Part shown: piece after piece, positions 33,815 to 56,731 of the stretch
How positions within the stretch are numbered: position 1 is the stretch's first letter
How the letters are laid out: the number at the start of each line of letters is the position of its first letter
Notes under the pieces: generated by a model
What the model saw: the letters and a program-made list of their open reading frames with translations, nothing else
The model's database searches: none
Told to the model about the DNA's origin: nothing
Made by a program: the position numbers and the translations under genes
NCBI RefSeq assembly: GCF_015291745.1
Contig: NZ_CP030059.1
Coordinates: 3,437,501 to 3,501,500 of the forward strand
From: Bradyrhizobium sp. CCBAU 53351
GTDB lineage: Bacteria; Pseudomonadota; Alphaproteobacteria; Rhizobiales; Xanthobacteraceae
Length of the DNA stretch: 64,000 nucleotides
Direction of reading: 5' to 3'

Positions 33815-35051
33815 TCCGCGGAGGGCCATTGCGCGCCAGTATCGCCGCCACGACCAGCGCCGCGATGACGTTGGCGGCGGCGCTGACCAGGATCGGCAAC
33901 ACGTAGCTGTGGTTGACGTCGTAGGCGAAACCGGCCGCACTCGGACCGACAAGCGTGCCGAACGCCACGCTGGTGTAGAGGATGCCGATGATTCCACTGA
34001 CGTTGCGTCCGCCGAAATAGTCCATGACCACAGAGGGCAGCACCGCGACCCATCCGCCGTAGAACGCGCCATAGACGAAGGCAAAAGCGGCGAGGGTCCA
34101 GACGTCAGCGGCAATCGCCCAGATCACCATCGCGAACGCCATTCCGATCAGGACCATGATCAGCGAGCGGTCCCGGCCCATCCGGTCGGCCAGCGCGCCG
34201 AGAAAGAAGCGGCCCGCGGTGCTGCCGGCGCCGATCACGCCGAGCAGCAGCACCGCGGAGGACGCCGCGACCCCGTGGTCGCGTGCGTAAGGCACGAGAT
34301 GGACGAACGGGATGAAGGCGCCGAACGAGCAAACCAGGCACGACACATAGAGGCCGGCGAATCGCGTCGACCGGACGGCCTCGCGCACCGATGCGCCGCC
34401 GGCGTTGTTTGCAGCCGCGGCATCGCGGGGCGGATCGCCATCGGGTCCGAGGCCACGGTCCTTCGGATCGTTCTCTATGAGCAGGGACATCCCGCCACCC
34501 AGCACCAGCACGATCGCGCCCAGCACCATATAGGCGCCGCGCCAACCCATCGATGCGATCAGCAATGAGGCGAGCGGCGGCATCGCAAGCGTGCCGATCC
34601 CGATGCCGCTCACCGCGAGCCCGGAGGCAAAGCCGCGGCGCCTCACAAACCAGCGTTGTACCGCGCCGATGGCCGGAACATAGGCGCAACCGACGCCGAG
34701 GCCGATGCCGAGCCCATAGGCGAGATAGACCTCGACCAGGGAGCGTGCAGCGCTCGCGGCCGCAAGTCCGACCGCGACCAGGATCATGCCGGCGACGGCC
34801 AGCGAACGCGAACCGAGCCGGTCGGCGAGGGGGCCGCTGACGAGTCCGAGCGCGAAATACAGAAAGCCCGCAATCGAAAACACCAGCGAGATCGAACCGC
34901 GCGAGGCGCCGAAGTCGCGCTGGAGCGGCTCCAGAAACGCGCTGAACGTGTAGGCGGAGCCGAAGCCGACGAACGTGACGGCAAAGGCTGCCGCGACGAC
35001 GAACCAGCCATGGAAAATGCCTTGCCGGGCGATCGTGGATTGAATGGTCAT
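33795..35051 (-). CDS. MFS transporter (OFA/MCT-like)
   Basis: 418 aa from ATG 35051, which overlaps the amidase stop as ATGA. Twelve membrane segments. It begins 'FHGWFVVAAAFAVTFVGFGSAYTFSAFLEPLQRDFGASRGSIS', the N-terminal wording of monocarboxylate/oxalate-formate antiporter relatives. The conserved MFS loop 2-3 is 'GPLADRLGSRSLAVAG' and its repeat is 'GALADRMGRDRSLIM'. A much longer frame continues upstream but is only the antisense-like shadow of the amidase gene. Coupled translation suggests it imports the amidase substrate or exports its product. Confidence 0.92.
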   Translation of the reverse strand: MTIQSTIARQGIFHGWFVVAAAFAVTFVGFGSAYTFSAFLEPLQRDFGASRGSISLVFSIAGFLYFALGLVSGPLADRLGSRSLAVAGMILVAVGLAAASAARSLVEVYLAYGLGIGLGVGCAYVPAIGAVQRWFVRRRGFASGLAVSGIGIGTLAMPPLASLLIASMGWRGAYMVLGAIVLVLGGGMSLLIENDPKDRGLGPDGDPPRDAAAANNAGGASVREAVRSTRFAGLYVSCLVCSFGAFIPFVHLVPYARDHGVAASSAVLLLGVIGAGSTAGRFFLGALADRMGRDRSLIMVLIGMAFAMVIWAIAADVWTLAAFAFVYGAFYGGWVAVLPSVVMDYFGGRNVSGIIGILYTSVAFGTLVGPSAAGFAYDVNHSYVLPILVSAAANVIAALVVAAILARNGPPRISAMKR

Positions 35052-53663: not shown

Positions 53664-54797
53664 ATGAGCGACGGCAAGACCGGACTGCAACTGCGTTCGC
53701 TGCTCAAGAAGAGCGGCGAGCTGGAATTGTCCCTCGTGAATGTCCCCACGCCGGAGCCGGCCGACGACGAGGTCGTGGTTCGCGTCGAGGCGACGCCGAT
53801 CAACCCCTCCGACCTCGGGCTGCTGATCGGGCCGGCCGACATGTCGGCCGCGAAGGCCTCCGGCACCAAGGAGATGCCGGTCATCACCGCGACGATGCCG
53901 GAGGCGGCGATGCGGATGATGGGAGCCCGGCTCGATCAGTCGCTGCCGGTCGGCAACGAGGGCGCCGGCACGGTGATCGGGGCCGGATCGTCGGACGCGG
54001 CGAAAGCGCTGATGGGCAAGACCGTGTCGATGATCGGCGGCGCGATGTACACGCAATACCGCGTGCTGAAGGTCCGCGACGTCATGGAGCTGCCGGCGGG
54101 CACCACGGCCGCCGACGGCGCGTCCTGGTTCGTCAATCCGTTGACCGCGCTCGGCATGACCGAGACGATGCGGCGGGAGAACCACAAGGCGCTGGTGCAC
54201 ACCGCGGCGGCGTCCAATCTCGGCCAGATGCTCAACAAGATCTGCATCAAGGACGGCATCGGGCTCGTCAACATCGTCAGGAGCAAGGAGCAGGCCGACA
54301 TCCTGCACAAGATCGGCGCCAAGCACGTCGTGGATTCCAGCGCGCCCAGCTTCACGGACGATCTCACCAATGCGCTGGTCGAGACCGGCGCCACGATTGC
54401 CTTCGACGCGATCGGCGGTGGCAAGCTGGCGAGCCAGATCCTGACCGCCATGGAAGTTGCGGCCAACAAGACCGCGAAGGAATACAGCCGCTACGGCTCC
54501 AACGTGTACAAGCAGGTCTATATCTACGGCAGCCTGGACAATCGGCCGACCGAATTGAGCCGGTCGTTCGGCCTGACCTGGGGCGTCGGCGGCTGGCTGC
54601 TCACGCCGTTCCTCCAGAAGATCGGTCCGGCCGAGATCGGCCGCCTGCGCCAGCGCGTCGCGTCCGAGCTCAAGACCACCTTCGCCAGCCACTACACCAA
54701 GGTGGTGTCGCTGACCGAGGTGCTCGATCCCGCCAACATCGCGGTGTACGCCAAACGCGCCACCGGCGAAAAATTCCTCATCAACCCAAATAAATAA
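53664..54797 (+). CDS. Zinc-independent MDR-type oxidoreductase (quinone/enoyl reductase-like)
   Basis: 377 aa. N-terminal GroES-like domain with 'VPTPEPADDEVVVRVEATPINPSDLGLLIG' and 'PVGNEGAGTVIGAG'. The Rossmann part has an atypical glycine region 'LVHTAAASNLGQMLNKICIKDGI', then 'ILHKIGAKHVVDSS' and 'IAFDAIGGGKLASQIL'. No zinc-binding Cys/His sets, so a quinone oxidoreductase/2-enoyl reductase type. About 45 residues longer than typical QOR owing to an insertion near 55-90. AGGGGAGG precedes the ATG; 43 bp after eno. Confidence 0.88.
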   Translation: MSDGKTGLQLRSLLKKSGELELSLVNVPTPEPADDEVVVRVEATPINPSDLGLLIGPADMSAAKASGTKEMPVITATMPEAAMRMMGARLDQSLPVGNEGAGTVIGAGSSDAAKALMGKTVSMIGGAMYTQYRVLKVRDVMELPAGTTAADGASWFVNPLTALGMTETMRRENHKALVHTAAASNLGQMLNKICIKDGIGLVNIVRSKEQADILHKIGAKHVVDSSAPSFTDDLTNALVETGATIAFDAIGGGKLASQILTAMEVAANKTAKEYSRYGSNVYKQVYIYGSLDNRPTELSRSFGLTWGVGGWLLTPFLQKIGPAEIGRLRQRVASELKTTFASHYTKVVSLTEVLDPANIAVYAKRATGEKFLINPNK

Positions 54798-54822: not shown

Positions 54823-54913
54823 GCAAGAAGGTCTTGCCTTCTGAGCCCAGCGGCGGATTATTCCGCCGCTATCGAATGCGGAAAACCGCAAGGGCTCAGA
54901 AGGGGACATTTCC
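54823..54913 (+). promoter_or_regulatory. Structured leader with mutually exclusive folds (candidate translational RNA switch)
   Basis: P1: CCTTCTGAGCCC (54837-54848) pairs perfectly with GGGCTCAGAAGG (54892-54903). Inside it, P2 is AGCGGCGGA/TCCGCCGCT (54849-54857/54862-54870) and P3 is TGCGG-AAAA-CCGCA (54877-54890), forming a three-way junction. The 3' strand of P1 contains AGAAGG, part of the purine-rich ribosome site 8-16 bases before ATG 54914. The same AGAAGG at 54826-54831 can pair with CCTTCT at 54837-54842 instead, which would free the site. Not a known riboswitch consensus as far as I can tell. Confidence 0.6.
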
Positions 54914-55912
54914 ATGACCGATCTCAATCGCCGTCATCTGCTCGCTGGCGCAGCCGCCCTCGGGGCGGCTGCTGCGACCGGGCTTGGACCGACCACCGCC
55001 AAGGCCGCAGTGCCGCCAGCCGGGACGCAGGCGCCGGGCTTCTATCGCTACAAGGTCGGCGCTTTCGAGTGCACCTCGATCAATGACGGTGCGCGCACCT
55101 TCCCGATGCCGGACAAGTTCGTCGCCAATCTGTCGAAGGACGAAGCGCTGGCGGCGGGCGAGGCGGCCTACATGCCGAAGGGCATGGTCACGGTGCCGTT
55201 CAACCCGCAACTCGTCAACACCGGCTCCAAGCTGGTCCTGATCGACACCGGCAACGGCATTGCGAATTTCGAGGCGAGCAAGGGCGCGGTCGGCCGCACG
55301 CTGCAAAACCTCCAGGCCGCCGGCGTCGATCCGAAGAACATCGACGTGGTTCTGCTCTCGCATCTGCACCCCGATCACACCAACGGCATCCGCCTCGCTG
55401 ACGGCGCGCTCGCATTTTCCAATGCGGAGATCATGGTGCCGGGCAAGGACTGGGAGTTCTGGACCAGCGAGGAGAACGCCGGCAAGGCCGAGTCCAATCC
55501 GATGATGAAGAACTACTTCGCCAACGTGAAGAAGACCTTCGCTGGCCTCGAGTCCAAGGTCACAAAGTACGAATGGGGCAAGGAGGTCGCGCCGGGCATC
55601 ACCTCGATCGCAACCCCGGGCCACACGCCGGGCCACACCTCGTTCGCGGTTGCCTCGGGCGATGCGAAGGTGCTGATCCAGTCCGACGTCACCAACATCC
55701 CGGAATTCTTCCTGCGCAATCCCGACTGGCACGTGATGTTCGATGCCGACGCCGCGCTGGCGCAGGAGACGCGCCACAAGTTCTACGACATGGCGGCCGC
55801 GGAGAAGGCGACCGTGATCGGCTTCCACTTCACGTTCCCGTCGGTCGGCCATGTCGAGAAGGACGGCGCGAAGTATCGCCTGATCCCGTCGGCGTGGAAT
55901 CCGACGATCTGA
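54914..55912 (+). CDS. Exported MBL-fold metallo-hydrolase
   Basis: 332 aa. Tat-type signal at 1-32 (NRRHLLAGAAALGAAAATG...TTAKA). The metallo-beta-lactamase fold has the metal motif SHLHPDHTNG (His150, His152, Asp154, His155), 'TPGHTPGHTSFAV' (third His) and 'IQSDVTNIPEF' (bridging Asp), with the last ligand in 'VIGFHFTFPSVGHVEK'. Two-metal hydrolase in the periplasm; lactonase or other esterase activity is possible, but substrate is not determinable. Its leader carries the structured RNA described above and a strong terminator follows. Confidence 0.93.
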   Translation: MTDLNRRHLLAGAAALGAAAATGLGPTTAKAAVPPAGTQAPGFYRYKVGAFECTSINDGARTFPMPDKFVANLSKDEALAAGEAAYMPKGMVTVPFNPQLVNTGSKLVLIDTGNGIANFEASKGAVGRTLQNLQAAGVDPKNIDVVLLSHLHPDHTNGIRLADGALAFSNAEIMVPGKDWEFWTSEENAGKAESNPMMKNYFANVKKTFAGLESKVTKYEWGKEVAPGITSIATPGHTPGHTSFAVASGDAKVLIQSDVTNIPEFFLRNPDWHVMFDADAALAQETRHKFYDMAAAEKATVIGFHFTFPSVGHVEKDGAKYRLIPSAWNPTI

Positions 55913-55936
55913 GTGACTTCGAGGTCCGCGCGAATG

Positions 55937-55967
55937 TCAGGCCGCCCCAGGGCGGCCTGATTGTTTT
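55937..55967 (+). terminator. Rho-independent terminator of the MBL gene
   Basis: TCAGGCCGCC (55937-55946) and GGCGGCCTGA (55951-55960) form a perfect 10-bp stem with a 4-nt loop, followed by TTGTTTT. It lies 24 bp after the stop. Confidence 0.9.
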
Positions 55968-56700: not shown

Positions 56701-56731
56701 TTCCGGGGCGATGCTTCGCATCGCCCCGGAA
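56701..56731. repeat. Perfect 14-bp hairpin, REP-like element
   Basis: TTCCGGGGCGATGC (56701-56714), TTC, GCATCGCCCCGGAA (56718-56731), followed by TGAC. It lies 15 bp after the FMN reductase stop and may end its transcript. The CCGGGGCGATGC wording is typical of dispersed bradyrhizobial palindromes. Confidence 0.6.

Follow-up and report, generated by a model that had tools for sequence, protein, structure and literature searches.

The leader of a hydrolase gene in Bradyrhizobium sp. CCBAU 53351 contains a long perfect inverted repeat, one half of which carries the ribosome site of the gene. This raises the question of what function the resulting RNA stem may have, and in which transcript it could form. 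The coordinates given below refer to the window, i.e. the whole stretch of 64,000 nucleotides (64 kb) that was analyzed, and the genes and leader elements described are located on its + strand. The stem (P1) is composed of a left arm (54837..54848) and a right arm (54892..54903), which pair perfectly over 12 bp; the ribosome site's AGAAGG is part of the right arm. P1 encloses two hairpins, P2 (54850..54869; 54850-54857 paired with 54862-54869) and P3 (54877..54890; 54877-54881 paired with 54886-54890), the latter with a GCGG-AAAA-CCGC core. A second copy of AGAAGG (54826..54831), located upstream of the stem, is able to pair with the CCTTCT of the left arm (54837-54842). A sequence-only reading of this leader had already pointed out these elements, and direct inspection found each of them exactly where it had been placed. 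The same reading proposed that the leader alternates between two exclusive folds, in the manner of a riboswitch or an RNA thermometer.

Folding of the segment 54810-54930 (121 nt) gave -59.9 kcal/mol (z -5.85), and none of 200 shuffled sequences folded as well. Perfect inverted repeats with arms of 12 bp or longer, and with loops no longer than 60, were found in 3 places in the 64-kb window, while 30 resampled windows contained a mean of 1.1 and a maximum of 5 repeats of this class. A perfect 12-bp inverted repeat alone is not rare; it is the conservation of this one that exceeds chance. The two further perfect repeats of at least 12 bp, both with short loops, are located at 34214-34258 and 56701-56731.

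The gene downstream of the stem (54914..55912) encodes an MBL-fold hydrolase (Pfam Lactamase_B) with a probable Tat signal, the match to the TAT_signal model being slightly below its cut-off. The AidB lactonase model gave a score of 155.6 bits (its cut-off is 360). The best five PDB matches of the protein include organophosphorus and methyl parathion hydrolases (E 6e-52 to 1e-48), and reconstructed lactonases are also among the nearest solved structures. Judging from these similarities, the hydrolase is a relative of methyl parathion hydrolase and of lactonases. A terminator-like stem-loop 3' of the gene (55936..55961; 11 pairs, 8 of them G-C) suggests that the hydrolase transcript ends there; terminator-like sites were seen 3 times in the region, against 2.2 expected from shuffles. 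The upstream neighbor is a quinone oxidoreductase/ADH-like ORF (53664..54797), with matches to ADH_N/ADH_zinc_N and quinone_pig3, all of which fall below the cut-offs. No + strand terminator-like site (a G+C stem followed by a T-run) was found between the ADH-like and the hydrolase genes, and read-through from the former is therefore plausible, which makes it a candidate source of read-through RNA.

A 9-bp hairpin without a T-run (P0; 54800..54821) adjoins the stop codon of the ADH-like gene on its 3' side. Its covariation is strong and exceeds that of the P1 stem: in the 98 leaders of alignment A1 (see below), 89.7% of its cells are paired and 4 of its 9 pairs have changed on both sides, with pair 54805/54816 being GC in 51 leaders and CG in 32.

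Leaders for comparison were obtained from four sources: (i) the best 80 of 107 confirmed loci from named genomes, (ii) 30 loci from 265 Bradyrhizobium genomes searched with the protein, which matched in 239 of them at E 1e-60, and, as the third and fourth sources, 64 further stretches and a family search. Duplicates were left out, as were loci lacking a usable leader or start (L019, L040, L066, L073, L075-L077 and L195). The final set contains 108 clade leaders, 31 deeper Bradyrhizobium leaders and 10 leaders from outside the genus; two of these 10, L067 and L188, are the same leader. The term clade denotes loci with a protein identity of approximately 84% or more, and is an identity-defined, not a phylogenetically tested group. 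Alignment A1 is comprised of 98 clade leaders; L041 was omitted from A2 and from the element model R1. Rates were counted on the 60 of the 84 tree rows whose leader is included in A1, and the four-fold degenerate sites used as a neutral yardstick were taken from the first 200 codons. The 47 sites of this kind show a mean of 6.1 and a median of 5 changes (60 taxa), and 23% of them have two or fewer. On a quick tree, most deep forks of which remained open, two loci without P1 (L064 and L078) fall within the clade, and the presence of P1 changes at least 6 times, with L005 scored as absent for one mismatch. The hydrolase and leader of L058, a record titled Frankia sp. RB7, are placed inside Bradyrhizobium as the sister of B. 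rifense L039; on this placement, the Frankia title is probably wrong.

The left arm of P1 coincides with a promoter-like element. A predicted -35 element, TTGCCT (54834..54839), overlaps this arm and is separated by a 16-nt spacer from a predicted -10 element, GATTAT (54856..54861), whose position would place the transcription start at 54868..54871. P2 thus overlaps both the -10 element and the region of the presumed start. The pattern TTGC.T-N16-GA..AT is present in 102 of the 108 clade leaders, in 21 of the 31 deeper ones and in none of the 10 non-genus leaders (shuffled means of 0.0, 0.02 and 0.0, respectively). L143, in which the start had been placed too far downstream, is counted among the deeper misses, and several other misses have a different spacing. 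A generic sigma-70 scan of the region did not list TTGCCT/GATTAT, which reaches 8 of 12 matches against a threshold of 9. The published promoters of B. japonicum include the form TTG-N16-18-TATA and one motif with CTTG at -35 (PMC4842269); the GATTAT of the window departs from the TATA core of the -10 element reported there. At the edge of the predicted start, positions 54864-54868 show 0, 0, 0, 0 and 1 changes (60 taxa). With a start at 54868-54871, the mRNA made from this promoter would contain neither the left arm of P1 nor, except for its very end, P2; P3 is common to this RNA and to RNA read through from upstream. A run of 10 or more consecutive P1-type pairs is missing from all 25 deeper leaders that were scored, and the promoter-like element is therefore probably older than the stem.

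We do not claim a promoter regulon: a degenerate form of the pattern (at most 2 mismatches) recovered its own site without mismatch and 5 two-mismatch sites, against 1 control match. Five deeper leaders (L123, L129, L130, L133 and L134) carry a dyad of 8-9 bp, GTTCTCCCG-N4-CGGGAGAAC or similar, within the -35/-10 spacer; it looks like an operator and is absent from the clade of the window.

How well is the stem conserved? At least 10 consecutive P1 pairs form in 80 of the 99 leaders that carry TTGCCTTC; the remaining 19, 3 of which lie outside the clade, have fewer. On the 60-taxon tree, pairs 1-6 show no change in either arm. Since the promoter and the ribosome site alone could hold these six pairs, pairs 7-10 are the most informative. 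Their left-arm positions, located in the promoter spacer (54843-54846), changed 1.0 times on average, compared with 10.5 times for 54847-54848, and their right-arm positions (pairs 10-7) changed 3.25 times on average (60 taxa). Pair 11 is GC in 63, CG in 8 and unpaired in 23 of the 98 leaders, and pair 12 forms in only 14 of the 98. As for the enclosed hairpins, two inner pairs of P2 fail to form, in the register of the window, in 88 and 65 of the 98 leaders, and the four inner pairs of P3 form in 94-95 of the 98, with the outermost pair failing in 72.

Covariation in P1, the check by which the proposed folds were to be judged, turned out to be thin, as compensatory changes are nearly absent apart from L041 and pair 11. 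A tree test of pair 11 yielded two to three supported independent pairs, which is too few events. For the whole structure in A1, 10 pairs have changed on both sides, and two slid controls reach 13 and 15; 84.7% of cells are paired, versus 36-46% in slid and 82.1% in shuffled controls, and the covariation score is 0.097, versus at most 0.046 in slid controls. RNAalifold, applied to 44 leaders, returned a covariation term of 0.04, with 1 of 21 pairs covarying. Such covariation support as P1 has comes mainly from one lineage, L041 (B. guangdongense; L041:1876-2003). On the quick tree, this lineage branches close to the base of the clade, as the sister of L055, in which P1 is eroded. In L041 both arms have been rewritten, and form 12 perfect pairs around a longer insert. 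When the arms of L041 are matched with the opposite arms of other leaders, its left arm makes a mean of 3.4 of the 6 inner pairs and its right arm a mean of 1.3. Over all leaders, own arms form 4.519 of 5 inner pairs versus 4.373 for arms swapped between species, a value reached in none of 2000 shuffles and, when L041 is removed, in 1 of 2000, these statistics ignoring kinship among the leaders. The right arm is eroded in L052-L056, L157-L160, L163, L174 and L180.

The proposal that the stem buries the ribosome site has held up: burial is predicted for RNA that contains both arms, and the core of the stem is conserved. In read-through RNA of the window, the predicted probability that the ribosome site is unpaired is 0.02-0.05 at 15-42 C and 0.07-0.08 at 60 C, compared with 0.58-0.62 in RNA starting at 54868. 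Across 96 clade leaders the predicted medians are 0.058 for read-through RNA and 0.353 for promoter RNA. The read-through RNA is the more closed one in 91 of them (5 exceptions) and the gain exceeds 0.3 in 56, with the value for the promoter RNA being above 0.4 in only 36. The 12 eroded leaders have medians of 0.212 (read-through) and 0.589 (promoter RNA), a similar gain, while in 26 deeper leaders the medians are 0.361 and 0.440, and a single one gains more than 0.3. According to these models, the difference between a closed and an open state would be largely a property of the P1-bearing clade, though the eroded leaders show one too.

The distribution of the element was examined with R1, a model built from 44 leaders, which was used to search 257 genomes of the genus at E 0.01 with stricter filters. 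It matched in 107 of the 257, at one place in each matching genome, and the genome of the window contains one full match. A weaker second match, seen 19 times, is in each case the first place read on the opposite strand, as expected of a palindrome. Compared by eye with the hydrolase places, all but two of the R1 places lie just upstream of a hydrolase match or of its extrapolated start. In the two exceptions (G104 and G105) the contig differs from that of the hydrolase match, which begins at a contig end; in G121 the R1 place adjoins a truncated hydrolase match. With the element found only at the hydrolase gene, in one copy in its own genome and at one place in each of the 107, we rejected the dispersed palindromic repeat that the sequence-only reading had raised as an objection to itself. 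Examination of 600-2000 nt of upstream sequence (for some, only 600 nt) failed to reveal the ADH-like gene in 17 of the 108 clade leaders, and 16 of these 17 keep at least 3 of the 5 inner P1 pairs. P1 therefore goes with the hydrolase gene and not with the gene that precedes it. The ADH-like gene is found upstream in 23 of the 31 deeper leaders.

Five of the 17 leaders (L011, L013, L023, L171 and L174) were viewed individually, and were found to have a different upstream ORF, with a C-terminus that we take to be AraC-type and with last residues resembling the C-terminus of the ADH-like protein. To judge from these sequences, it is as if the ADH-like gene had been swapped by recombination.

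The best explanation for this arrangement, to which we assign a probability of about 0.5, is a promoter-in-stem insulator that blocks the translation of read-through RNA. The hydrolase gene would possess its own sigma-70-type promoter, whose -35 element and spacer double, in RNA, as the left arm of a long-range stem, with the ribosome site carried by the right arm. RNA started at this local promoter would lack the left arm, leaving the ribosome site open. RNA coming from the upstream gene would contain both arms, and P1 would fold over P2 and P3 and hide the ribosome site. Read-through RNA would then be poorly translated, and expression of the hydrolase would depend on the local promoter. We infer both that read-through occurs and that selection favors its silencing.

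One point against such an insulator is the upstream AGAAGG copy, which would pair first in the nascent RNA and could delay the formation of P1. In nascent RNA ending before the right arm, its pairing with CCTTCT is predicted at 0.93-0.999 for the inner five pairs and at 0.79-0.98 for the outermost one. This pairing is possible, G-U included, in 93.7% of cells, versus 49-69% in slid controls; it shows no double changes and no excess over shuffled columns. The copy has been deleted in L026, and it accumulates a mean of 5.0 changes per site, about the neutral rate (6.1 at four-fold sites), which does not favor the anti-sequestering role that had been ascribed to it.

The nascent pairing, together with a three-way junction able to bury the ribosome site, is also what would be expected of a riboswitch, an RNA thermometer or a bistable leader acting within the gene's own mRNA. 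The predicted start at 54868-54871, however, lies downstream of the left arm, and hence downstream of 54837, the position that the sequence-only reading had itself named as the limit for such a design. The two folds are mutually exclusive, as that reading maintained, but they are far from balanced, the alternative reaching at most 2e-4 in the full RNA. Moreover, the competing copy is without visible selection and the linker at the junction (54870-54876) is variable, with a mean of 5.4 changes per site. In ROSE and other rhizobial RNA thermometers the ribosome site lies within a stem. The stem described here differs in being G+C-rich, with no opening predicted from 15 to 60 C, and in having no Rfam match at the gathering threshold. 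The earlier statement that the leader resembles neither a named riboswitch nor ROSE is in agreement with the Rfam search of the element, which included thermometer models and gave six matches up to E 5, all far below gathering; the best of these, PinT (20 bits versus the 60 needed), was taken as a chance match. A new riboswitch or RNA thermometer is thus unlikely, and we regard the whole group of explanations based on switching within the gene's own mRNA as highly improbable. We also rejected a small upstream ORF overlapping the start codon, which is not conserved: a start codon at most 46 nt upstream occurs in its frame in 47 of the 108 leaders, and in the other two frames in 30 and 33 of the 108. 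That the stem has no function, and merely reflects chance complementarity between the ribosome site, with its AGAAGG, and a CCTTCT beside the -35 element, is distinctly improbable. About one perfect repeat as long as this is to be expected in every 64 kb and the deeper leaders have the promoter without the stem, but chance complementarity would leave unexplained the 10 or more consecutive pairs in 80 of the 99 leaders, the rarity of change at 54843-54846 relative to their neighbors, and the concerted alteration of the arms in L041.

The main rival is a DNA operator, because the sequences of the arms are conserved and the covariation is thin. According to this explanation, CCTTCTGAGC at the -35 element and spacer and its inverted copy at the ribosome site bind a regulator, which bends or loops the DNA, and the RNA stem is a by-product; AGAAGG-N5-CCTTCT, lying over the -35 element, is perhaps bound as well. 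The arms are indeed conserved as sequence, beyond the needs of pairing, and the distance between them peaks at 63 bp, i.e. six helical turns (a value shown by 25 of the 83 leaders whose spacing is 60-66; among the 98 leaders examined, 14 are without both motifs and 1 has a spacing of 78). AGAAGG-N5-CCTTCT is present in L062, which is without the P1 core, and the spacer dyad of the five deeper leaders would also suit an operator. On the other hand, the arm spacing is spread over 7 bp, both arms have been altered in concert in L041, and the upstream half-site evolves at a near-neutral rate. We consider the operator unlikely, though it deserves serious attention. An element serving the 3' end of the upstream mRNA, in which P0, P2 and P1 stop exonucleases or aid Rho- or RNase III-dependent ending, is improbable. 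It would account for the position of P0 beside the upstream stop codon and for the strong covariation of this hairpin, but P1 is kept in 16 of the 17 leaders in which no ADH-like gene was found, and none of the 25 deeper leaders scored has 10 consecutive pairs, although the ADH-like gene is present in 23 of the 31. Such a role fits P0 better than P1.

The promoter-in-stem insulator may be extended, more tentatively, to a chromosomal class of such insulators kept by selection, in which the nascent AGAAGG pairing could add a kinetic gate. A polymerase arriving from upstream would transcribe the promoter, whose own sequence, now in RNA, would lock the ribosome site, and the transient AGAAGG pairing might decide which of the read-through RNAs become locked.

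The principle of this arrangement has parallels in known systems. In the fold-back inhibition of IS10, an upstream arm present in read-through transposase RNA hides the ribosome site, and RNA from the transposase's own promoter starts too late to contain that arm. The leader described here is similar in that the read-through RNA is predicted to lock itself and the own-promoter RNA to be open; it differs in that the gene is a chromosomal hydrolase gene, not a transposase gene, and in that the predicted promoter itself constitutes the arm. In phage T4 gene e (lysozyme), the early read-through RNA is closed and a late promoter is located inside the stem. A promoter in the left part of the stem, and two RNAs with opposite translation, are predicted here as well, whereas there is no phage timing switch and no late sigma factor, and the element recurs across a single bacterial genus (107 of 257 genomes). 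A ribosome site hidden by a 5' UTR structure is likewise a feature of the tnp leader of ISPpu9, which is opened by an antisense sRNA; passages on this leader in PMC8450116 describe no promoter inside the arm.

If the promoter-in-stem insulator is correct, it would represent a simple route by which a bacterial gene can ignore read-through from its neighbor, with the promoter and the lock sharing the same bases, and it would explain the presence, in many Bradyrhizobium genomes, of a conserved inverted repeat extending across a promoter and a ribosome site. It would also caution that, where the promoter lies within a stable leader fold, sequestration of the ribosome site does not by itself make that fold a riboswitch. 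Control of the hydrolase may, in turn, have a bearing on the breakdown of signals or pesticides in soil.
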